A stretch of 35,284 nt of DNA from an uncultured Akkermansia sp. (GCA_947588645.1 CANPYO010000015.1:1-35284); one strand, 5' to 3'. Shown: positions 2,787-31,081, counted from the first letter of the stretch. The notes: generated from the sequence alone by a model not told the origin. Numbers and translations are program-made.

Positions 2787-3749
2787 GTGACAACATCACT
2801 TATCACAGGCGGTACCGGATTTCTGGGTTCAAACCTCTGCGCGCGGCTGTTGCGGGAGGGGCGGCGCGTGATCTGCCTGGACAACAACTACACCGGACGC
2901 ATGGAGAATATCTCGGAATTGCAGGGAAATGCAAACTTCCGTTTCGTGAAGCACGACGTGTGCGCTCCCTTCGACCCGGGCGAACAGCTAGATGAAATCT
3001 ACAACCTCGCCTGTCCCGCCTCGCCCCCTGCATACCAAGGGCGCCACTCCATCGATACCACCCGCACCTGCGTGTTGGGCGCTCTCAACATGCTGGAGCT
3101 GGCTAGGGCGCATGGGGCTCGCATCCTGCAAGCGAGCACCTCGGAGGTGTACGGCGAGCCGATGGAGCATCCGCAGAAGGAAACCTACCGCGGCAATGTG
3201 AACCCCATTGGCATTCGTGCCTGCTACGACGAGGGCAAACGCTGCGCCGAGAGCCTCTTCTTCGACTACCACCGCCACGAGGGCGTCTCCATCCGGGTGA
3301 TTCGCATTTTCAATACCTACGGTCCGAAGATGAATCCGAAGGACGGCCGCGTGGTGTCCAACTTCATCTGTCAGGCGTTGCGAGGAGAAGATATCACCAT
3401 CTACGGCGATGGGAGTCAGACGCGCTCTTTCTGCTATGTGGATGATCTCATTGAAGGCATGGTGCGGATGATGGCGGTAGAAGATTCCTCCTTTACGGGG
3501 CCGGTGAACTTGGGCAACCCCGGGGAATTCACCATCCGGGAGCTGGCGGACATTGTGCTCTCCAAAGTACGCAGCAACTCCAAACTCGTGCATTGCGATC
3601 TGCCGTCGGATGACCCCACGCAGCGGAGACCGGATATTTCTCTTGCACAGACCGTGCTGGGTTGGAGCCCGCGGGTGCCATTAGAGCAAGGGCTGGATGC
3701 AACCATTCAATACTTCCAAAAGCAAATCACACAAATCAGCAAACCATGA
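2787..3749 (+). CDS. uxs: UDP-glucuronate decarboxylase (UDP-xylose synthase)
   Basis: A 320-residue extended SDR that converts UDP-glucuronate to UDP-xylose in the cytosol. The NAD-binding [10 protein letters not shown] motif lies near residue 7, STSEVYG near residue 115, and the catalytic pair is Y147-D-E-G-K151. The segment [10 protein letters not shown] and the NTYGPKM block are typical of Uxs rather than GalE. Translation most likely begins at GTG 2787, three bases after the preceding stop; an ATG start would remove the nucleotide fold. The stop overlaps the ATG of the next gene. Together with the following UDP-glucose dehydrogenase it forms the UDP-glucose to UDP-glucuronate to UDP-xylose route, written in reverse gene order. 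Confidence 0.9.
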
Positions 3750-4999
3750 AAGTAGCCATCATAGGAACAGGATACGTGGGACTCCCCACGGGAGCGGGGC
3801 TGGCAAGCCTCGGGCACGATGTCACCTGCATCGATTGCGACCACGAAAAAGTGGAAAGACTGCGCGCCGGTGAAGTGACGCTCTTCGAGGAGGGTCTTGA
3901 AGAGTTGTTGAAATCGGGGCTGGAGAGTGGGAAACTCTCCTTCACCGAAGACATGGCTCAGGGGGTGCGCGGGGCTCAGCTCATCCTGCTGGCAGTCGGG
4001 ACTCCCCCGGATCGTCGAACCGGTCAGGCTGACCTGCGCTACCTGTTTGGAGCCGTGAAAGAGGTCGCTCCCTTCCTGCCCACCGAAGCCGTTGTCGCCG
4101 TCAAATCCACGGTACCGGTCGGCACGGGGGATGAAGTGGAAAAGCGAATCCGCAAAACCAACCCGAAGGCGTGCGTCGAGGTGATCTCCCTGCCCGAGTT
4201 CCTGCGCGAGGGCTATGCCGTGCATGACTTCTTCCACCCCGTGCGCATCGTCGTGGGCACCCAATCCCAAAAGGCGCGCGAGCTCATCCAGGAACTCTAT
4301 GCCCCTCTCCCCAACGCAACCAGGTTCCTCTTCGTGGCGCGTCGTTCCTCGGAGGCCATCAAGTACGCCTCCAATGCCTTCCTCGCGGTGAAGATTCATT
4401 ACATCAATGAGATGGCAGACTTCTGCGAGGCCGCGGGAGCCAACATCCACGAAGTCGCGCAGGGCATGGGGCTGGACTCACGCATCGGCCCGGCGTTCCT
4501 CAAACCCGGTCCGGGCTACGGCGGCTCCTGCTTCCCGAAGGACACGAAGGCCATCGAACACATGGCGCGCAAATTGGGGGTGGAGCTCTCGCTTATCCGC
4601 GCCGCCATCAAGGGAAACAAGAAACGCCGCGAGAACATGGCGAGACGCGTCCTGAAAGAAGTCGAGGATATACCCTCTCCGAAGATAGCCGTCTGGGGGC
4701 TGGCGTTCAAGGAAGGGACAGATGACTGCCGTGAGAGTCCCGCCGTGGAGATTGTGCAGTGCCTGGCGAGCAACCACGTGGACGTGTGCGTCTACGACCC
4801 GCAAGCCATGACGACGGCACGCCGGATTCTGGGCGACACCGTCACCTACGCGCCGGATATGTACAGCGCAGCGCAGGGAGCCGATGTATTGGTCATCCTC
4901 ACGGAATGGCCGCAGTTTGATGCGGCGGACTGGAAGCGAGTGGCAAGCGGGCTGCGCTCACGCCACATTTTAGACTTCCGCTTTTTCAAGAAACGATGA
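3746..4999 (+). CDS. ugd: UDP-glucose 6-dehydrogenase
   Basis: A 417-residue enzyme that oxidises UDP-glucose to UDP-glucuronate with two NAD+. It begins [14 protein letters not shown], the Rossmann motif, and the catalytic cysteine is C262 in [12 protein letters not shown]. The [20 protein letters not shown] block and the C-terminal [19 protein letters not shown] segment are classic for the UDP-glucose/GDP-mannose dehydrogenase family. A longer in-frame start exists at 3662 but lies inside the previous gene; ATG 3746 overlaps that gene's stop by 4 bp and gives the standard N-terminus. It supplies substrate to the upstream decarboxylase and is coupled to the following epimerase by another ATGA overlap. 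Confidence 0.95.
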
Positions 5000-5982
5000 A
5001 AGCAGACACTAAACAAATTCTGGTGATGGGAGGTGCAGGCTACATCGGCTCGCATACGGTGCGGCATTTGCTGGATCGCGGTTACGGTGTGGTAGTGGCC
5101 GACAACCTGATCTATGGGCACCGCGAGGCAGTGGATCCTCGCGCGGCCTTTGAAAAGGCCGACCTGCTGGAGCCGGAGAGTCTGCAAGCTCTCTTTGAAA
5201 AGTACGACATCGGCGCCGTGGTGCACTTCGCTGCCTTTGCCTACGTGGGAGAGAGCGTCACCAAGCCTACCAAGTACTACCGCAACAACGTGGTCGGCAC
5301 TCTTAACCTGCTGGATGCGATGCTGCAGCATGGGGTGAAGAAGATTGTCTTCTCCTCCACCTGCGCCACCTATGGCGAGCCGCACTACACGCCCATCGAT
5401 GAAAAACACGCGCAGAATCCCATCAACCCCTACGGGCGCAGCAAGCTCATGGTGGAGCAGATTTTTTCGGACTACGAACGCGCCTATGGTCTTCAACACA
5501 TCGCCCTGCGCTACTTCAACGCCGCCGGCGCCGCTGAGGACGGCAGCATCGGTGAGGCGCACGATCCGGAGACGCACCTGATCCCGCTGGTGCTGCAAGC
5601 CATCGCCGGCAAGCGCGATTGCATCCGCGTGTTCGGCAGTGACTACGACACGCCGGACGGTTCCTGCATCCGCGACTACATCCACGTGGAGGATCTGGCG
5701 GAGGCGCATCGCCTCGCGCTGGAAAAGCTGGAAGACTACTCCGGGTGCATCAACCTCGGCACGGGTTGCGGCACGAGTGTGCTGGAGTTGATCCACGCCG
5801 CCGAAGAGGTATGCGGCAAGTCCTGTCCCAAGGAATTGACGGAGCGTCGTCCCGGGGATCCGGCACGGCTCTACGCCAACAATGCCGCCGCGCGCTCCAT
5901 TCTCGGTTGGCAGCCGCGCCATACCGATATCCGTTCCATCCTCTCCACCGCCTGGCAGTGGGAGCAACACAGACGCTTTTAA
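4996..5982 (+). CDS. galE: UDP-glucose 4-epimerase family protein (operon copy)
   Basis: A 328-residue extended SDR. GGAGYIGSH near residue 13, HFAAFAYVGESV, SSTCATYGEP and the Y146-G-R-S-K150 pair are all present, followed by RYFNAAGA and the DGSCIRDYIHV block typical of GalE. The reaction is reversible C4 epimerisation of a UDP-sugar in the cytosol, generally UDP-glucose/UDP-galactose. It sits between ugd and a UDP-galactopyranose mutase, so supplying UDP-galactose for UDP-galactofuranose is the simplest reading. Because a UDP-xylose synthase is also in the operon, activity on UDP-xylose to give UDP-arabinose is an alternative. A second galE-like gene lies at 33120-34109. The start overlaps the previous stop by 4 bp. 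Confidence 0.9.
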   Translation: MKADTKQILVMGGAGYIGSHTVRHLLDRGYGVVVADNLIYGHREAVDPRAAFEKADLLEPESLQALFEKYDIGAVVHFAAFAYVGESVTKPTKYYRNNVVGTLNLLDAMLQHGVKKIVFSSTCATYGEPHYTPIDEKHAQNPINPYGRSKLMVEQIFSDYERAYGLQHIALRYFNAAGAAEDGSIGEAHDPETHLIPLVLQAIAGKRDCIRVFGSDYDTPDGSCIRDYIHVEDLAEAHRLALEKLEDYSGCINLGTGCGTSVLELIHAAEEVCGKSCPKELTERRPGDPARLYANNAAARSILGWQPRHTDIRSILSTAWQWEQHRRF

Positions 5983-5989
5983 TCTGACG

Positions 5990-7111
5990 ATGAGTACACC
6001 CCAATCGGAACACGTGAAGAACCTTGTGGTAGGCTGCGGCCTGTCCGGCATGGTTGTGGCGGAGCGTATCGCTTCGCAACTCGGTGAGCCCGTGCTCATC
6101 ATCGACAAACGCTCCCACATCGGCGGCAATATCTACGATGAAAAGGCTCCCGAAACGGGGGTGACGGTGCATCAATACGGGCCTCACGTCTTTCATACCA
6201 ACAGCAAGGAAGTGTGGGATTACCTGAGCCGCTTCACCGAATGGCATCCTTTCATGTACCGGGTGAAAGCGGTGGTGGACGGTACGGAAGTCCCTGTGCC
6301 TTTCAACCTCGACTCGCTGCATGCGCTCTTCCCGCGCACGATGGCGACCCGCATCGAGGAGAAGCTGATCGCTTCCTTCGGGTTCAACACGGATGTGCCC
6401 ATCCTCAAGCTGCGCGAAACGAAGGATGAGGATCTGCATCTGCTGGCGGATTTTATCTACGAAAAGGTGTTTGCCGGGTACACGATGAAGCAGTGGGGGC
6501 TGACGGCGGAGCAGTTGGATGCCTCCGTGAGCGCTCGCGTACCGGTACGAGTCGGACGGGATGATCGCTACTTCCGCGACACCTACCAGGCGATTCCCGC
6601 TGAGGGCTACACCGCCATGGCGCGGCGGATGATCTCGCACCCGCTCATAGAAGTGCGCCTCAACACGAATTGGTCGGATGTGAAGGACTCCATTTCCTAC
6701 GACCGACTTTTCTTCACGGGACCGATCGACGAATTCTTCGACTACGAGTTCGGGGCGCTCCCCTACCGCAGCTTGGATCTTCAGTTCCGTAGCCTGCCGC
6801 GGGAGTTCGTGCAGTCCGGTCCGCAGATCAACTTCCCCTGCAATTACGATTACACTCGCAGTGTGGAGTACAAATACTACCTGGACGAGAAAACAACGCA
6901 CACCACCATCTCGCGCGAATACCCCTGCGCCTACTCTCCCGGCAAGAACGAACCCTACTACCCTATCCCATCCCCCGGAAACGCCGCTCTCTACGAGCGC
7001 TACGCCCAACTCGCATCCTCCCTCCCCAACACCCACTTCCTCGGCCGCCTCGCCTCCTACCGCTACCTTAATATGGACCAGACGGTGAAGGAAGCATTGA
7101 AGCAGAAATAA
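5990..7111 (+). CDS. glf: UDP-galactopyranose mutase
   Basis: A 373-residue flavoenzyme that interconverts UDP-galactopyranose and UDP-galactofuranose. The FAD-binding start LVVGCGLSGMVVAERIAS is followed by IIDKRSHIGGNIYDE; the family motifs YGPHVFHTN, FTGPIDEFFDYEFGALPYRSL and NFPCNYDYTRSVEYK are present. The C-terminal EYPCAYSPGKNEPYYPIP segment also fits. ATG 5990 is chosen, 7 bp after the galE stop; the longer in-frame start at 5882 would overlap galE by 100 bp and adds a low-complexity leader. Presence of this gene indicates that the encoded glycan contains galactofuranose, or that UDP-Galf is a precursor of it. Confidence 0.95.
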   Translation: MSTPQSEHVKNLVVGCGLSGMVVAERIASQLGEPVLIIDKRSHIGGNIYDEKAPETGVTVHQYGPHVFHTNSKEVWDYLSRFTEWHPFMYRVKAVVDGTEVPVPFNLDSLHALFPRTMATRIEEKLIASFGFNTDVPILKLRETKDEDLHLLADFIYEKVFAGYTMKQWGLTAEQLDASVSARVPVRVGRDDRYFRDTYQAIPAEGYTAMARRMISHPLIEVRLNTNWSDVKDSISYDRLFFTGPIDEFFDYEFGALPYRSLDLQFRSLPREFVQSGPQINFPCNYDYTRSVEYKYYLDEKTTHTTISREYPCAYSPGKNEPYYPIPSPGNAALYERYAQLASSLPNTHFLGRLASYRYLNMDQTVKEALKQK

Positions 7112-10751: not shown

Positions 10752-13037
10752 ATGAATATTAATAGACTGAAAAGCAAAATGAAAAAGATTATAAAAGCGT
10801 TGTTAGGAGGTTTGAGCATCAGTGTTGTGCTGTGCTCTCTATTCCCGAGCGCCTTTCTGGATGGTGATGCTAAGTGGACGTTCCAAAACGATTTGGGGCG
10901 TGTGGATGTTATCTTTGCCGTGGATGCGCACAATGGGAAGATCGATGTCACAGGGAAAGGCTTAGAACTGGATAGGCCGCGATTTTACTTAGATAACAAG
11001 AGCAACCAGGGGATCGTGGCTAAGTTTCCTGTTTCCTACCTCCGGAAATCTTACCAGGTCACACTGAAGCCTCGTGGAAATGCCAAAGAAATCTCGCTGG
11101 TGATGGGGTTCCGAGGAAAGAATTTTCGCGTTAATAATCAGAGGAAGCCAGCACACGTTCGTTTTGAGAATATACGAATTAATGGAAAAACCATCGCCAG
11201 GGAGAAAACTGTTTGGCACGATAAATCATTCTGGTATCAGGCAAAGAACATTCCTGACAATTCAATGCTCAAATTGAGCTTTGACATCCGAAAGCCGCTC
11301 TCCTCCGAGGATATCGTATGGTACAGGTTGTTTGGATTGTTCATTGTTTGTGTGTTGCTTATTTCCTGTTTCGATCCCCTTAGACGACTAGTCCATGAGG
11401 TCAACAAGAAGGACATCGTCCAAGTAATCGCAGAAACCTACAGAAACATCGACGTGGTTTACCGAAGAGCCTTTTGGATTATCTTTGGCGTGCTTTGTCT
11501 CGCTTTTGGGTTCCATACTATTGAGTTCATGTGGGGAAATCACGACTGGAGATTCTTACGTTCTTCTTTAAATTGGATTGAGTTTCAACCTATTGGGCGA
11601 TACGCATTAGCATTCTTTCGGAAATTATTCTTAGGAGGTATTTATTTACCTCTCATTAGTGATATTATCTCATTTCTCTTCTTAGCCCTCAATGCAGTAC
11701 TCCTTTGCACCTATTGGAAATTGTCAAAACGAGTTATTTACCTTGTTCTATGCGGTCTCATTCTGACCGTGCAGCCGTTTACATTGAGCATGATGTATTA
11801 TGTGCATATGCTTCCCGAGGTCTTTATAGGTGTCACATTTATCCCGATGGCTTTAATGATTTCAGAGAAGATTGCTTTTGAAAAAAGTTCTCCCATGAGG
11901 AAAGGTACCTTCTCTGTCCTCTCTATTGTTCTAATCAACCTGTCACTGGCCACGTATCCTGTTCTAATTAACACCATTGCCGTGGCTTTCGTTGGCAGGT
12001 TGTTAATTAAATCATTTGACTGGGACGGTTCGTGGAAACAGTTCAAATCTTACTTCTTCCCCTTTTCTGTTTCGGTGCTTAACATTGTACTCGGAATTCT
12101 TTCCTACAAGATCATGCTTTCTTGTGTGTTTTCGCCGCAAAAAAACGGCTACAATGTGCAAGAACTGCCACTCGATGACCTCCCAGAACGTCTATTGATT
12201 TTACTCAAGCAGAGCTTCCATCAATTGAATGAATATAATCTCCCTTTCATTTCCCAAGCCGTTTTGTGGGTCTTTCTGTGTTTTACGATTCTCGTGGCCT
12301 TGTACATTTGCCTAACAGGGAACTTTAAACAGAAAATCGTGAGACTAATTTTACTAGGAGGAGCTCTCTATGCGACTCAAACAGCCATGATGGTTGCTAA
12401 TGAACACATCATAGACGAACGGATAGAATTATTTGGATTGGTGGTCTTTGAAGCACTTGTGACGGCTATAGTATTTACAGAGCTCAGGAAGCTGCACAAT
12501 TGGAGCGTCCTTGCAACCGTGGGAATTATCTGGGTATCCGTCATCAACGACTTGGACTGTCTTCGCGTCTGGAAACTGGGGTTTGATGCAGAAAAAATGA
12601 AGTGGAACAGAATATTGGCAAGGCTAGAAATCCAGAAAGATTTCGACGTAACCAAGAAATACAAGGTTGTTCAAATTGGTCCGGAGATATCAATGAGACC
12701 TCGCTATATTAAAGCAAAACCAGGAAAGCCGACCGCTAACATGCTGCAATATTCTTGGAATCTGCGCTCTTTCGATGCTGTTGACTTCTATTGTCAGCAA
12801 GGTTTTAGAAAAGAAGCACTTTCGTCTTACCGCTCTGGTGATAAACTCAAAGTCAAGGTTGAACTCAAGCGACTCTGGGAAGCTGGCGTCTTGGATAAGG
12901 CTCAGGCGTGGCCACACGAGAATGGACTCATCGTGTGGAAAGATATCATCCTCTTTGTCACCGATGCAAAACTGCTTGAGGAATACAAGAAGCAACTCGC
13001 CCAAGAATTTCCCCGACAACCTCAGAACACACTATGA
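10752..13037 (+). CDS. GtrII-like polytopic membrane glycosyltransferase (GT-C type)
   Basis: A 761-residue membrane protein. One membrane segment near residues 13-35 precedes a beta-rich region (about 40-190) likely outside the cytosol. A second segment near 192-210 leads into a hydrophobic core of roughly nine to ten further helices (240-620) and a soluble C-terminal part of about 140 residues. The WGNHDWRF motif near residue 261, followed by EFQPIGRYALAF, resembles the aspartate-containing first loop of GtrII-type glucosyltransferases, which use polyprenyl-phosphate sugars on the outer face of the membrane. The specific sugar is unknown. Its stop overlaps the phosphatase gene by 4 bp. An AAGGA ribosome site precedes ATG 10752. 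Family call is moderate. Confidence 0.65.
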   Translation: MNINRLKSKMKKIIKALLGGLSISVVLCSLFPSAFLDGDAKWTFQNDLGRVDVIFAVDAHNGKIDVTGKGLELDRPRFYLDNKSNQGIVAKFPVSYLRKSYQVTLKPRGNAKEISLVMGFRGKNFRVNNQRKPAHVRFENIRINGKTIAREKTVWHDKSFWYQAKNIPDNSMLKLSFDIRKPLSSEDIVWYRLFGLFIVCVLLISCFDPLRRLVHEVNKKDIVQVIAETYRNIDVVYRRAFWIIFGVLCLAFGFHTIEFMWGNHDWRFLRSSLNWIEFQPIGRYALAFFRKLFLGGIYLPLISDIISFLFLALNAVLLCTYWKLSKRVIYLVLCGLILTVQPFTLSMMYYVHMLPEVFIGVTFIPMALMISEKIAFEKSSPMRKGTFSVLSIVLINLSLATYPVLINTIAVAFVGRLLIKSFDWDGSWKQFKSYFFPFSVSVLNIVLGILSYKIMLSCVFSPQKNGYNVQELPLDDLPERLLILLKQSFHQLNEYNLPFISQAVLWVFLCFTILVALYICLTGNFKQKIVRLILLGGALYATQTAMMVANEHIIDERIELFGLVVFEALVTAIVFTELRKLHNWSVLATVGIIWVSVINDLDCLRVWKLGFDAEKMKWNRILARLEIQKDFDVTKKYKVVQIGPEISMRPRYIKAKPGKPTANMLQYSWNLRSFDAVDFYCQQGFRKEALSSYRSGDKLKVKVELKRLWEAGVLDKAQAWPHENGLIVWKDIILFVTDAKLLEEYKKQLAQEFPRQPQNTL

Positions 13038-13525
13038 ACGACAAACTATACAGATTCCTATGTTACACAGCCGGAAGCGGTTTCGGCGTCGGCTACTTTC
13101 CCTTTGCCTCCGGAACAGCTGGTTCGGCTGCGACTCTGCCCGTCGCCTTCGGCATTGCTTACTTCTGCGGGACGTGGGGACTGCTGCTCACCGCCGCCGT
13201 GACCTTCTTCATAGGTGTCATCGCATCCAAAGAAATCCTCAAATACACCAAGCACGATCCCTCTCTCATCATTATCGACGAGGTCGTGGGACAGTTGGTC
13301 ACCCTCGCCTTTGTCGGTCCCTGCCTGGTTGAAAATCTGCACGCCTGGTGGGCGTACATCGCCGGGTTTTTCCTGTTCCGACTCTTCGATATCGTCAAAC
13401 CCCAGCCCGCCAAGTGGGCGGATCAAAAGCTGCTCAACGCCTGGGGCGTCATGCTCGATGACGTCTTCGCCGGGATCTACGCCGGACTCTGCCTCCTCCT
13501 CATCAACTTCTATCTCGTCTCATGA
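13034..13525 (+). CDS. pgpA: Phosphatidylglycerophosphatase A family phosphatase
   Basis: A 163-residue membrane protein with all PgpA motifs: GFGVGYFPFASGTAGS near the N-terminus, IIDEVVGQ, FFLFRLFDIVKPQP and GVMLDDVFAGIYAG, plus about four membrane segments. PgpA removes the phosphate from phosphatidylglycerol phosphate to make phosphatidylglycerol. Here it is locked into a polysaccharide operon by 4-bp overlaps with the GT-C gene upstream and the UbiA-type phosphoribosyltransferase downstream. That makes dephosphorylation of polyprenyl-phospho-5-phosphoribose a credible alternative role. The family call is secure; which lipid it acts on is inference. Confidence 0.9.
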   Translation: MNDKLYRFLCYTAGSGFGVGYFPFASGTAGSAATLPVAFGIAYFCGTWGLLLTAAVTFFIGVIASKEILKYTKHDPSLIIIDEVVGQLVTLAFVGPCLVENLHAWWAYIAGFFLFRLFDIVKPQPAKWADQKLLNAWGVMLDDVFAGIYAGLCLLLINFYLVS

Positions 13526-14388
13526 AGGCCTTGTTGAAACTCATCCGCATCAAGCAGTGGGTCAAGAACGCTTTTGTTCTTGCGCCGCTGCTCTTCTCCT
13601 TCCAATTTACGGACATCCCCTCTGTCCTGTCGGCTCTCTATGCCTTTCTCGCATTCAGCCTTATCGCCAGCGCTCACTACATCGTCAATGATATTCAGGA
13701 TCGGGAAAAGGATGCGCTGCATCCTCAAAAGAAACATCGCCCTATTGCCAGTGGAGTCATCTCGGTGAAAAAAGGCCTTGTGGCAGCCTTATTTCTCCTA
13801 TACGGGGGGGGGGTATTTATCTGGATGTTGGGTGACGTCAAAGTTGCGGGAGTCATCGGACTCTATTTGCTCATCAACGTCCTCTATTCCGGAAAGCTGA
13901 AGAATATCGTCCTGCTGGATGTGTTCGTGATCGCCATAGGCTTCGTGCTGCGGGTGTATGCCGGCGCCTATGCCATCCATGAGCCGGTCTCGAGCTTTAT
14001 CTTCATGACGACGCTGTTTCTATCGCTCTTCTTGGGATTTGCGAAGCGCAAGGGCGAACTGCTGCGGCATGGAACGGCATCGCGAACCGTACTCAAAAAG
14101 TACGGGAAGGAAATGCTCAACGCCTATCTGGCCGTCACGATGGCGCTTACCATCATGTCCTACGCTCTCTGGACCATGGAGACCAATACGAAAGCTAATC
14201 TGGGCACGCACCGCATGATTTACAGCATCGTGTTTGTCGTGTTCGGAATGTTTTGGTACGTGTACATTTTGGACAAGTATAACGGTTCGGAGGACCCGAC
14301 CGAAAACTTGTACAAGGATAAGGCCTTGCTGTTGACGTGCTGCGCCTTTGTCGGCTACGTGCTGTTGCTCTTTCTCAACGTCGCATAA
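13522..14388 (+). CDS. UbiA-family polyprenyl-phosphate phosphoribosyltransferase (DPPR synthase-like)
   Basis: A 288-residue polytopic membrane protein. The first aspartate motif is N56-D-I-Q-D60 with D64 and HRPIASG following; the second is YSGKLKNIVLLDVFVIAIGF. The opening LLKLIRIKQWVKNAFVLAPLLFS and the RVYAGA and FLGFAKRKGEL segments are typical of decaprenyl-phosphate phosphoribosyltransferase (Rv3806c-type) rather than of ubiquinone or haem prenyltransferases. The enzyme would couple PRPP to polyprenyl phosphate at the inner membrane. It overlaps pgpA by 4 bp and precedes a small flippase-like gene. A run of ten G residues at 13804-13813 encodes YGGGV; one-base slippage either way leads to early stops, so expression may vary. 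Confidence 0.85.
   Translation: MKALLKLIRIKQWVKNAFVLAPLLFSFQFTDIPSVLSALYAFLAFSLIASAHYIVNDIQDREKDALHPQKKHRPIASGVISVKKGLVAALFLLYGGGVFIWMLGDVKVAGVIGLYLLINVLYSGKLKNIVLLDVFVIAIGFVLRVYAGAYAIHEPVSSFIFMTTLFLSLFLGFAKRKGELLRHGTASRTVLKKYGKEMLNAYLAVTMALTIMSYALWTMETNTKANLGTHRMIYSIVFVVFGMFWYVYILDKYNGSEDPTENLYKDKALLLTCCAFVGYVLLLFLNVA
13804..13813 (+). repeat. Poly-G tract (G10) inside the UbiA-type gene
   Basis: Ten consecutive G residues lie within the reading frame, encoding Gly-Gly-Gly plus the first base of a valine codon. With eleven Gs the frame reaches TGA about seven codons later; with nine it reaches TGA about thirty codons later. The tract is therefore a candidate slipped-strand switch. The assembled length is in frame. 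Confidence 0.75.
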
Positions 14389-14406
14389 TAGGGAGGTCAG
14401 AAACAC

Positions 14407-14787
14407 ATGAAAACCATCCTACTGATCTTGTCCAGTGTGGCATTGAATGCGCTGGCGCAGTTGTTCGTCCGGCAGGGGATGCTCAAAATCGGCTCCGTTT
14501 CCCTCGAGATCGGGCAGCTGTGGAACATGGTTTTGAGCTTTTTTACGAATCTGTACTTATGGGGCGGGATGTTGTGCTACGCCGTATCCCTAGTTCTCTG
14601 GATGGTAGTGCTTTCGAAGGTCAATGTGTCGCTGGCTTATCCCTTTTCCTGTGTCGGATTCATCATCACCGCTGTCTTGGCCTATTTCTTCCTCAACGAG
14701 CCACTGACTCTTCAGAAGTGCATCGGGATAGCGGTCATTTGCCTAGGGGTCATCATTTTAACTTACAGTAAAGATTTCACGTCATGA
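14407..14787 (+). CDS. Small EamA/SMR-type membrane protein (ArnE/ArnF-like lipid-sugar flippase subunit)
   Basis: A 126-residue protein with four membrane helices, opening LLILSSVALNALAQLFVRQGML and containing SLAYPFSCVGFIITAVLAYFFLNEPLTLQKCIGIAVICLGV, a pattern shared by ArnE/ArnF and small EamA/SMR proteins. ArnE/ArnF flip undecaprenyl-phosphate-aminoarabinose across the inner membrane. Here, immediately downstream of a polyprenyl-phosphate phosphoribosyltransferase, flipping a polyprenyl-linked pentose is the likely task. A multidrug efflux role is less probable in this setting. GGGAGG at 14391-14396, ten bases before ATG 14407, is a strong ribosome site. The stop overlaps the next gene by 4 bp. 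Confidence 0.75.
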   Translation: MKTILLILSSVALNALAQLFVRQGMLKIGSVSLEIGQLWNMVLSFFTNLYLWGGMLCYAVSLVLWMVVLSKVNVSLAYPFSCVGFIITAVLAYFFLNEPLTLQKCIGIAVICLGVIILTYSKDFTS

Positions 14788-15914
14788 AACAAGCCGATAC
14801 AACAATCACCGAAGAAGAAGCGAACCTCGCAACCACAGTCGAAAATGCATCCGTAAAAAGGCCGCGCGCGCACTACATTGATCTGGTACGAGGCATCTGT
14901 GCCTTGAGCATCGTGTTTATTCACACATGTTTTTGGTCAGGTGGGGGATACGTTCCCATACCGATAAAGTCCATTTCGTTGCTGTTGGATGTGCCGGCAT
15001 TTTTCTTCATCGCAGGCATGACCAGGGCGTACATTCAGAAAGACACTATTCTGACCCAGCTCATCAAGCTTTCGATGGTTTTTGTACTTCTGGGGCTCCT
15101 GTGCAATCTGGTTGATGGAGAAGTCACGTGGGCATCGATTTTCCGACCGCTGTTTCTCATGGGCATTAACGTTTCTCCTTTGTTTAAGGTTGTGCCGAGT
15201 TCCTACTGGTTCGTGCCGATCTATGCCTGCACCATCATCTTGGGCGGCGTGATTATTAAACATACCGGGGGGGGGTATATTATGGGGGTTATTTCCCTCA
15301 TCGTACTTACCTACGTCCTCGCGTTCGGAGGATTACTGAACTTTGCAGGGTACAGCTTCCTCGGGAGCAGACTGGAGATGTTGCTCTTCCCGGTAGCGAG
15401 TTACCTGTTTGGCTACTGGTGCCAGCAGCACATCATCCAAGCGGAGATCCACAAGCGCAGAAAATTTGTCCTGCTTCTGGCATTCGTGGCTTTCATTGTT
15501 TTTTGCCTCTGTTATCTGAGTGAGGGTAGTGGTGTCTACAATCTGCAAATTAATAAATTCCCCGTCAAACTTCCGTACATAGCCGCTTCCTGCCTCTCCA
15601 TGGCGGGCATCATTTTCTTCGCCAGTGACGCCCTGCGCAACCGATTCTTCGAACATGTCGGTCGCAACGCCATTTTCTACTACGCCGGTCAGGGAGTTTC
15701 CTCCTCCCTCCTCTTTCTCATTTCCCCGTATATCCGCCTGGAGTGGGGCATCAAACTGCCCATCATGTTCGCTATCAACCTAGCGCTTGCCATCATCTTC
15801 TCGGAAGCCCTGCGGTTGCTGGATACCGCGCTCGTATCCGCTATCCGGGCGGACAAAAAAGCGCTGTTCCACCGTCTGCTGCTCCGTTGTCGGCTTTCAA
15901 AAGCTGAAGAATAA
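14784..15914 (+). CDS. Acyltransferase 3 family membrane O-acyltransferase
   Basis: A 376-residue protein with about ten membrane helices. The N-terminus HYIDLVRGICALSIVFIHTC carries the conserved R and H of the acyltransferase-3 family (OafA/NodX type), and VPAFFFIAGM matches its third motif. These enzymes add acetyl or other acyl groups to sugars on membrane-linked glycans. It is the last gene of the polysaccharide operon, coupled to the flippase gene by ATGA. The residues before 30 are a short cytosolic leader. A run of nine Gs at 15267-15275 encodes Gly-Gly-Gly, and slippage of one base in either direction leads to a premature stop. The product may thus be phase-variable. Confidence 0.85.
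   Translation: MKQADTTITEEEANLATTVENASVKRPRAHYIDLVRGICALSIVFIHTCFWSGGGYVPIPIKSISLLLDVPAFFFIAGMTRAYIQKDTILTQLIKLSMVFVLLGLLCNLVDGEVTWASIFRPLFLMGINVSPLFKVVPSSYWFVPIYACTIILGGVIIKHTGGGYIMGVISLIVLTYVLAFGGLLNFAGYSFLGSRLEMLLFPVASYLFGYWCQQHIIQAEIHKRRKFVLLLAFVAFIVFCLCYLSEGSGVYNLQINKFPVKLPYIAASCLSMAGIIFFASDALRNRFFEHVGRNAIFYYAGQGVSSSLLFLISPYIRLEWGIKLPIMFAINLALAIIFSEALRLLDTALVSAIRADKKALFHRLLLRCRLSKAEE
15267..15275 (+). repeat. Poly-G tract (G9) inside the acyltransferase gene
   Basis: Nine consecutive G residues, in frame as three glycine codons. Loss of one G leads to TGA about 25 codons later; gain of one leads to a stop further downstream. It is a candidate contingency tract altering O-acylation of the glycan. 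The assembled length keeps the gene intact. Confidence 0.75.
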
Positions 15915-15984
15915 GACGGGAAAAAGTTGATGACATCCTTGAACTCTCAACATTCTCTGATAAACTGACAAAAAATAATTAATT

Positions 15985-29066: not shown

Positions 29067-29125
29067 GATCGTAAACCGTAAATCAAAAATCGTAAATGGC
29101 AGACGCATTTTCTGATGCGTCTGCT
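29067..29125 (-). repeat. Hairpin-TACGAT intergenic element, copy 5 (compensatory stem change)
   Basis: On the plus strand the stem reads GGCAGACGCAT and ATGCGTCTGC (29098-29125): relative to the consensus an A-to-G change on one arm is matched by T-to-C on the other, so pairing is kept. Degenerate TACGAT-type units (as ATCGTAAA) lie at 29067-29097, away from the coaE-rho gene. Confidence 0.8.
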
Positions 29126-29146
29126 GTGGGTTTTGAGCATTTGGGC

Positions 29147-29175
29147 TTGCGAATGAGGGGGCAGTATGCTAGGAT
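29147..29175 (+). promoter_or_regulatory. Possible promoter of the coaE-rho gene
   Basis: TTGCGA (29147-29152), 17-bp spacer, TAGGAT (29170-29175) preceded by TGC. The match to consensus is modest. Its main support is the 21-bp distance to the hairpin element, as at kdsA and trkH. If real, transcription would start near 29182, favouring GTG 29183 as translation start. Confidence 0.3.
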
Positions 29176-31081
29176 GAGCGGCGTGAAGGTTATTGTTATC
29201 ACCGGAGGAATTGCGTCCGGGAAGAGTACCGTGGTGAAGATGCTGCAGGAAATGTGCGGGCAGGGGATGGTGTTGTTTGATTGCGACCGCGCAGTGACAG
29301 AGCTGTACGAGAGCGGAAAGTTGGCGCGCGATCTGGTTTCTGCTTTCGGTTCGGAGGCGCTGGATGAGCAAGGAGCTGTCAATAGGGATTTCCTGCGCAA
29401 TATCGTCACGTCTGATCCGCAGGGACGGGCAAAACTGGAGGAACTGGTACACCCTAAGCTGGCGCAAATATGTACTCAAGCGCAAGCCGATGCGAGACAG
29501 AGCGGGAAGGTACACACATTTGTTGCGGATATTCCTCTCTACTTCGAGAGCAGGAGCGGGGTGAATGTGATGGCGGACAAGGTATGCACGGTAGCGCTCA
29601 CCCCGGAAACCCAGATGAGACGACTTATGGAGCGCAATGGCTTTTCGCGCGAGGTCGCTCAAGGCATGGTGAATGCTCAATTATCCACTGAGGAAAAAAT
29701 TGCCGGTGCGGATTGCGTGTTCTGGAATGAGGGTTCCATCGACCAACTCCACGAACAGGTGCGTCTCTTTTACCGCCAGGAGATCGAAAAAGAGGCCAAA
29801 GCCTGCATCGCTGCCATGGTGGAAGTGAATCTTAATGAGCTACAAGCGCTTAGTTTCCCGGAGTTGCAAAAAAAAGCCGAAGGGCTTTCCGCCCGCTGGC
29901 TCACAGGGGATCACACCCGACGCCAACTCGTTTCAGGGCTAGGGCGCACGTACTCTACGGAAGGCAACCAAGTGTACGCCACAGGGATTATCGACCGTGG
30001 TCGTTTCCCCAAACAGGGCATGTTGCGCTACCCCTCATGCAGTTTCCGCCCGGGGGAGGATGATGTCCTCATTTCCCCGGAGCTCATGGCGCGTTATGAT
30101 CTACGCTACGGTAACCAGGTCAAGGTAAAGCTACGCGGTCAGCAGCGCTGGGAGCACCCGCTCCAGGCCACAGAAATCGTGGAAATTGAAGGCGTGCCGA
30201 CGGCGGATTACGTGCAGCGACCTGACTTTGAGCAACTCACCGCACTCATCCCCACACGCAGACTCATTTTAGAGAACATCGACAACCCCTCGCCCGCCAT
30301 GCGTCTGCTGGATTTGGTGGCGCCGCTTGGCATGGGGCAGCGCGCATTGGTGGTGGCTCCGCCGCGCGGAGGGAAGACGATTCTGCTTAAGTCGATGGCG
30401 CGGTCATTGCGGGCAAATTATCCGGAAGCTGAGCTGTTGATTTTGCTGCTTGATGAACGTCCGGAAGAGGTGACAGACTTTGAAGAGACGGTGGATGCAC
30501 CGGTGTATGCTTCCACCTTTGATGAAAGCTCATACCGCCACGAACAACTGAGTGATATGGTGCTGGAGCGCGCGCGCCGCCTTGTGGAACAGGGAAAGGA
30601 TGTGATTATCCTGCTGGACTCGCTCACACGTCTCGCCCGAGGCTACAATGCGCATGCCACCGGTGGGCGCACCATGTCCGGCGGACTGGACTCCCACGCC
30701 TTGGAAAAACCGCGTAAGTTTTTCGGCGCCGCGCGCAATGTAGAAGAAGGGGGTAGCCTCACCATCATCGCCACTTGCCTAGTGGACACGGAATCCCGGA
30801 TGGATGAAATCATCTTCGAAGAATTCAAAGGAACCGGCAACATGGAGATCCGGCTGGATCGTGAGCTCGCAGAGCGCCGCATCTTCCCCGCTATCTCCCT
30901 GCCCCAAAGCGGCACGCGTAATGATGACCGGCTCTACCATCCGGATGAGCTTGCCCGCGTGTTGCAGTTGCGCCGTCAGCTTGCAACCCACCCGGGGTGG
31001 GAAGCCTTGGAGCTCCTGCTAGCCAACATCCGTAAAACGCAGAACAACGCAGAGCTTCTGCTGCGCGGCCTCGTTATTTAA
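29174..31081 (+). CDS. coaE-rho: Dephospho-CoA kinase - transcription terminator Rho fusion protein
   Basis: One uninterrupted frame encodes two normally separate proteins (635 residues). Residues 1-214 are CoaE: P-loop GGIASGKSTV, DCDRAV, VADIPLYFESRSG and the AQ...ADCVFWNEGS block; it phosphorylates dephospho-CoA. Residues 215-635 are full-length Rho (421 residues; E. coli has 419): N-terminal helical domain, RNA-binding OB fold (GMLRYPSCSFRPGEDDVLIS), Walker A APPRGGKT, LLDERPEEVTDF, DSLTRLARGYN and FGAARNVEEGGSLTIIAT. The Rho part begins with an ATG (29816), so separate translation is conceivable, but no ribosome site is close to it. Starts upstream of 29174 lie in the repeat; GTG 29183 is an alternative. 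An A8 run lies at 29868-29875. Confidence 0.92.
   Translation: MSGVKVIVITGGIASGKSTVVKMLQEMCGQGMVLFDCDRAVTELYESGKLARDLVSAFGSEALDEQGAVNRDFLRNIVTSDPQGRAKLEELVHPKLAQICTQAQADARQSGKVHTFVADIPLYFESRSGVNVMADKVCTVALTPETQMRRLMERNGFSREVAQGMVNAQLSTEEKIAGADCVFWNEGSIDQLHEQVRLFYRQEIEKEAKACIAAMVEVNLNELQALSFPELQKKAEGLSARWLTGDHTRRQLVSGLGRTYSTEGNQVYATGIIDRGRFPKQGMLRYPSCSFRPGEDDVLISPELMARYDLRYGNQVKVKLRGQQRWEHPLQATEIVEIEGVPTADYVQRPDFEQLTALIPTRRLILENIDNPSPAMRLLDLVAPLGMGQRALVVAPPRGGKTILLKSMARSLRANYPEAELLILLLDERPEEVTDFEETVDAPVYASTFDESSYRHEQLSDMVLERARRLVEQGKDVIILLDSLTRLARGYNAHATGGRTMSGGLDSHALEKPRKFFGAARNVEEGGSLTIIATCLVDTESRMDEIIFEEFKGTGNMEIRLDRELAERRIFPAISLPQSGTRNDDRLYHPDELARVLQLRRQLATHPGWEALELLLANIRKTQNNAELLLRGLVI

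Follow-up and report, generated by a model that had tools for sequence, protein, structure and literature searches.

A PgpA-family protein as the proposed phosphatase of a predicted pentofuranose-decoration module in gut Akkermansia

Why should a gene of the PgpA family lie between a glycosyltransferase and a UbiA-type gene in a glycan locus? The question is raised by a stretch of DNA of 35,284 nucleotides from an uncultured Akkermansia sp. (GCA_947588645.1 CANPYO010000015.1:1-35284), referred to here as the window, in which open reading frame (ORF) calling places five co-directional genes on the + strand within positions 10752-15914, encoding a GT-C glycosyltransferase, a PgpA protein, a UbiA protein, a small EamA/SMR protein and an acyltransferase. 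A sequence-only reading of the window had proposed that these genes make, dephosphorylate, flip and use polyprenyl-phospho-5-phosphoribose and then acylate the product. The layout it described is borne out by the ORF coordinates, with ATGA overlaps at 13034, 13522 and 14784 (three of the four junctions) and an 18 bp gap carrying a GGGAGG ribosome-binding-like site between UbiA and EamA, and by Pfam assignments that exceed Pfam's curated cut-offs for all five proteins. We conclude, at a probability of roughly 0.78, that the five genes would form a self-contained pentofuranose-decoration module with a dedicated PgpA, horizontally acquired and then multiplied. Judged by its sequences, the module is well supported as a variant of the "three-component" pentofuranose pathway of 2024, one with PgpA as putative phosphatase; we found no description of this variant, and no published link between PgpA and the phosphoribosyltransferase, among open-licence PubMed Central papers.

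The UbiA protein has no additional domain and its gene is preceded by the separate PgpA gene. It scores 255 bits against the NCBIfam model NF008977, "decaprenyl-phosphate phosphoribosyltransferase" (cut-off 234), while NCBIfam families not named as polyprenyl-phosphate phosphoribosyltransferase (PPPRS) all score far under their own cut-offs. It also aligns to Mycobacterium tuberculosis Rv3806c (8j8j) with 104 bits, its motif NDIQDREKDALHPQKKHRPIASG lying against NDVRDVEADREHPTKRFRPIAAG of Rv3806c and keeping the pattern N-D-x-x-D-x-x-x-D, the residues of which are required for the activity of Citrobacter ORF15 (PMC11127046). Family score and motif conservation support the proposed role of this protein in making polyprenyl-phospho-5-phosphoribose, and in an alphaproteobacterial version of the module (L085) a gene for phosphoribosyl pyrophosphate (PRPP) synthetase (3712-4629; TIGR01251, 176 bits, cut-off 113) stands immediately ahead of PgpA and PPPRS, consistent with a role of PRPP as donor. 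For the EamA protein the top NCBIfam match is ArnF (8.6e-15, under the ArnF cut-off), and the family scores favour an SMR-type protein, in keeping with the small flippase suggested earlier; the GtrII-like assignment of the GT-C likewise finds support in its PF14264 match. Gene families, motifs, linkage, phylogeny and purifying selection are read from the sequences themselves; the sugar, its acceptor and all of the catalysis are inferred. UbiA would use PRPP to place phosphoribose on polyprenyl (undecaprenyl) phosphate, PgpA would remove the 5-phosphate at the cytoplasmic face, the EamA/SMR protein would flip polyprenyl-phospho-ribofuranose outward, the GtrII-type GT-C would pass the pentofuranose to a surface glycan, and the acyltransferase would acylate either the sugar or the glycan.

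The arrangement is not a product of chance, because it recurs at two further sites of the genome, in other Akkermansia and in alphaproteobacterial genomes. Exactly three PgpA genes, three PF14264 GtrII genes and, among five UbiA genes, three of the PPPRS type are found in the source genome (2.49 Mb, 158 contigs, 95.9% complete), and all lie in three modules; a search for another pgpA elsewhere, which the sequence-only reading had advised, uncovered two, each inside a paralogous module. Across the genus, PgpA occurs in 7 of 76 genomes and PPPRS in the same seven (Fisher p 4.6e-10 for the co-occurrence, uncorrected for kinship), and all 12 PgpA copies adjoin a PPPRS. Neither gene is found in the other 69, of which 49 have a completeness of 90% or more and a contamination of 5% or less. 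PgpA is therefore not the housekeeping enzyme of the genus, and since the source genome encodes PgsA (TIGR00560 above cut-off) and module-free congeners lack PgpA, the genus must dephosphorylate phosphatidylglycerophosphate by another enzyme. The finding that would have counted against the sequence-only reading, a lone PgpA with a housekeeping role, is thus not what the genomes show. In a sample of 288 genomes from the phylum, those outside the genus that have PgpA carry one copy of it, never beside PPPRS as judged from the listed coordinates.

When 84,980 species genomes were scanned with PgpA, the module turned up in uncultured Akkermansia metagenome-assembled genomes (L077-L084, L090) with "Lapin" in their isolate names, presumably from rabbit gut, and in gut-type Alphaproteobacteria (L085, L086, L089, L092), with identities of about 70-78% for PgpA, 58-60% for UbiA and 60-70% for EamA in the three alphaproteobacterial loci where EamA was found. 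A maximum-likelihood tree places the 17 module PgpAs on one side of one branch (support 100/95), nested in stand-alone alphaproteobacterial PgpAs and far from those of the Verrucomicrobia. The alphaproteobacterial order has PgpA in 138 of 153 genomes, more than one copy being found only in G294 and G297, both module-bearing. The module PgpA would then be a dedicated paralogue that goes back to a single recruitment of a PgpA of gut Alphaproteobacteria, and Akkermansia probably acquired the module from gut Alphaproteobacteria by horizontal transfer, after which it would have multiplied. A verrucomicrobial PgpA as the source is ruled out by the tree. Family scores, motifs, the co-occurrence of PgpA with PPPRS, the dedicated PgpA clade and the duplicate PgpA in two donor-like genomes all favour the core that had been proposed, namely a PPPRS, PgpA in place of PAP2, an SMR-type flippase and a GtrII GT-C.

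The pentose itself is suggested by the gene that follows EamA. In the Citrobacter prototype ribofuranose is made without an epimerase, xylofuranose with the short-chain dehydrogenase/reductase (SDR) epimerase ORF13, and arabinofuranose with DprE1/DprE2 (PMC11127046). An acyltransferase occupies this slot in the window, in the C9 copy and in L080, L082, L083 and L090; in L077, L078 and L084 it is taken by an SDR epimerase that carries the motifs GGxGFVG and YGxSK, 62-64% identical to the same-slot epimerase of L086, L089 and L092, and two genomes carry both kinds (L078 with L082; L077 with L083). The acylation step foreseen earlier thus retains its gene, but as an optional one, because some copies have the epimerase instead. 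Since acyltransferase and not epimerase follows EamA in the window, ribofuranose is most likely the sugar of its module. Attachment of arabinofuranose or xylofuranose, from the same donor synthesis but with an epimerase elsewhere acting on a shared lipid pool, is unlikely in our judgement, although it survives best among the alternatives: epimerases do fill the acyltransferase slot of some Akkermansia modules, ORF13 converts ribofuranose to xylofuranose in Citrobacter O2, and in the C64 copy the gene after EamA lies past the contig end, yet the epimerase is absent from both complete modules of the genome (window and C9) and no DprE1-like gene was found in the window, in the C9 and C64 stretches or in the sister loci examined. 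Genome-wide there was no match to PF04030, a model that also misses one DprE1-like protein, so the earlier expectation of ribose rather than arabinose, from the lack of DprE1/DprE2, is supported at the locus and less secure for the genome as a whole. Two upstream genes were considered as pentose epimerases and rejected, neither being close to the module epimerase: 4996-5982 is a clear GalE (TIGR01179, 431 bits), and 2787-3749 is nearest to dehydratase and UDP-xylose-synthase types, below all cut-offs.

It is decidedly improbable that PgpA is an ordinary phosphatidylglycerophosphate phosphatase caught by chance in a glycan operon. It shares with those enzymes the whole-family match and, in a PgpA alignment, the motifs IDEVVGQ, FRLFDI and GVMLDD, and in two of the four alphaproteobacterial genomes (G295 and G296) the module copy is the only PgpA found. 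It differs from them in its genetic tie to PPPRS, which holds for all copies, up to three per genome, and in forming a separate clade within the alphaproteobacterial PgpAs; the separate additional PgpA of two alphaproteobacterial genomes and the 69 congeners that do without any, despite PgsA in the source genome, argue in the same direction. We take CobZ to be related to PgpA, partly because the module PgpA matches it in NCBIfam, though weakly. CobZ is an archaeal alpha-ribazole-5'-phosphate phosphatase that removes the 5'-phosphate (PMC3223730). As an enzyme acting on a ribose 5-phosphate, it may serve as a precedent for PgpA-type action on such a substrate.

Several points weigh against a dedicated PgpA in a ribofuranose module. 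The seven Akkermansia genomes may reflect a single gain, so their co-occurrence is not independent evidence genome by genome, and in G295 and G296, where the module PgpA stands alone, it may also serve phospholipid synthesis. The mycobacterial phosphatase Rv3807c is dispensable (PMC5964476), so the step may not absolutely depend on a phosphatase of its own. Other pentoses keep some probability, given that modules may share a lipid pool, that the C64 copy is truncated and that the test for DprE1 is imperfect. Lastly, the AlphaFold model of the GT-C is poor (predicted local distance difference test, pLDDT, 53) and its fold search gave chance matches, so that the GT-C class is assigned from the Pfam match and a conserved motif. 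That UbiA instead prenylates another substrate and the module serves a different lipid-linked compound, as the diversity of UbiA enzymes and the other products of UbiA-bearing clusters such as ebo might allow, is the least credible reading, given the PPPRS cut-off exceeded here and not approached by other families, the PRPP-synthetase gene of L085, and the fact that the cluster also encodes a GT-C of GtrII type and a protein of SMR type.

The three copies of the module differ in how far their parts have diverged. Between copies the PgpA, UbiA and EamA proteins are 95-98% identical, with a dS of 0.25-0.33 and a dN/dS (ratio of nonsynonymous to synonymous substitution rates) of 0.04-0.08, values that indicate purifying selection on the three genes, whereas the GT-Cs are only 63-66% identical (dS 1.2-1.9). 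Along the window and C9, identity is about 65% inside the upstream part of the GT-C, changes abruptly to about 93% near 12,900, and drops to 51% after 15,930. The contrast may reflect gene conversion that homogenised the cassette, or else exchange or diversification of the GT-Cs. What is new here is this near-identical donor cassette against a diverging GT-C, together with a terminal gene that swaps between acyltransferase and SDR epimerase.

The phosphatase beside PPPRS also varies between organisms, in a comparison that is a handful of examples from a few unrelated bacteria and one archaeon rather than a survey. The neighbouring gene is a PAP2 in Rhodococcus, a divergent PAP2/DUF212 in Marivivens and a HAD in a Lactococcus plasmid and the alphaproteobacterial genome G322; in the archaeon Halostagnicola a PHP-domain gene, a further candidate phosphatase, directly follows PPPRS (L177:3959-5585). 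A Flammeovirgaceae plasmid has genes of DprE1/DprE2 type there, for a flavin adenine dinucleotide oxidoreductase and an SDR, and no phosphatase gene was seen beside PPPRS in, among others, L157 and a Legionella plasmid. Several kinds of phosphatase thus share this slot, PgpA among them. The non-homologous replacement claimed by the sequence-only reading stands in that PgpA appears to occupy the place of PAP2; the principle is not new, since different phosphatases next to PPPRS (HAD in Citrobacter, PAP2 in mycobacteria) had been described before, and only the PgpA case is. A more tentative proposal, to which we would give slightly under even odds, is that a PgpA-family enzyme would have turned into a phosphatase devoted to polyprenyl-phospho-5-phosphoribose, joining at least four other phosphatase kinds in the slot, and that the module would serve Akkermansia as a multi-copy surface-diversity cassette, with a homogenised donor cassette, a GT-C diverging in each copy and an acyltransferase/pentose-epimerase swap.

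Three known systems invite comparison. With the three-component systems of Citrobacter youngae O1/O2 (Kelly et al. 2024, PMC11127046) the module shares a UbiA-type PPPRS, a separate flippase and GT-C, in some versions an SDR epimerase like ORF13 of O2, and sugar addition expected outside the cytoplasm, a step predicted from the genes in the module. It differs from Citrobacter in its separate PgpA gene where a HAD domain is fused to PPPRS there, in an EamA/SMR protein in place of a MATE flippase, in the added acyltransferase and in having several copies per genome; the Citrobacter GT-C (ORF12) is of family GT136, and the best match of the module GT-C is PF14264 GtrII. The mycobacterial decaprenyl-phospho-arabinose pathway (Rv3806c, Rv3807c, Rv3789, DprE1/DprE2) likewise has a PPPRS homologue, a separate phosphatase gene and an SMR-type flippase, but its phosphatase is a PAP2 where PgpA adjoins the module PPPRS (the comparison covers the gene beside PPPRS, not the rest of the genome), DprE1/DprE2 are lacking at the module loci examined, and the GT-C is different. 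Gtr O-antigen glucosylation (GtrA, GtrB, GtrII) likewise groups in one cluster a GtrII-type GT-C, an enzyme that makes the lipid-linked donor and a small flippase, and it has the same logic of serotype variation; there the donor maker is GtrB rather than UbiA, the flippase GtrA rather than EamA/SMR, and no extra phosphatase is needed.

In an alignment the GT-C shows an invariant WGNHD (residues 261-265) after the first helix of its core, opening the first predicted extracytoplasmic loop. Its N-terminal domain shares homology (E about 1e-7 to 1e-11) with domains at the C-terminus of GT2/TupA glycosyltransferases encoded in the same genome or at sister loci (Table 1), and a common glycan-binding role is our guess. 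The domain model, a beta-sandwich, gave no significant Foldseek match, and the name carbohydrate-binding module is not applied to it. Sequence searches of the PDB with PgpA, and with PgpA and GT-C profiles, gave no matches. In L084:284-7008 a single PgpA comes after tandem GT-C genes, one GT-C being broken into two reading frames that overlap (4715-5239 and 5230-7008). Elsewhere in the window, the glycan locus starts with an IspD-type cytidylyltransferase-SDR fusion (364-1743) resembling CDP-ribitol-making enzymes, and a single ORF at 29096-31081 joins a dephospho-CoA kinase domain (PF01121) to a Rho-like transcription terminator (PF07497, PF00006).

Table 1. Coordinates of the module, its parts and its relatives (window positions unless a contig or locus is named).
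Feature	Position	Strand	Details
GtrII-type GT-C glycosyltransferase (PF14264)	10752-13037	+	761 aa; Pfam 2.4e-19
GT-C N-terminal domain, predicted beta-sandwich, probably extracytoplasmic	10851-11315	+	homology; model pLDDT 74
PgpA-family phosphatase (PF04608), proposed polyprenyl-phospho-5-phosphoribose 5-phosphatase	13034-13525	+	163 aa; 7.1e-39, 133 bits
UbiA-type PPPRS (PF01040)	13522-14388	+	288 aa; Pfam 1e-25
Small EamA/SMR protein, proposed polyprenyl-phospho-ribose flippase	14407-14787	+	126 aa; PF00892 1.5e-7, PF00893 8.5e-6
Membrane acyltransferase (PF01757), optional tailoring gene	14784-15914	+	376 aa; 2.3e-9
Donor cassette block	12900-15930	+	mostly 85-97% identical to C9 copy
Module copy, window (C15)	10752-15914	+	five genes
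Module copy, C9	C9:2656-7881	minus	five genes
Module copy, C64	C64:10620-14163		contig ends inside UbiA
SDR epimerase after EamA	L077:6897-7865; L078:8742-9710; L084:8742-9707		
Relatives of GT-C N-terminal domain	L009:8655-11939; L010:95-4291; L078:1273-3777; L082:1-1443		same genome or sister loci

If the proposed role of PgpA is true, it would be a new enzyme for removal of the 5-phosphate, a step common to the mycobacterial arabinan pathway, whose known phosphatase gene is dispensable. Under existing annotation the gene would be labelled phosphatidylglycerophosphatase A, and modules of this sort could escape notice as a result. Some gut Akkermansia would also be predicted to bear rare pentofuranoses on their surface, varied by recombination and gene swapping, and such variation would be relevant to host and phage recognition.

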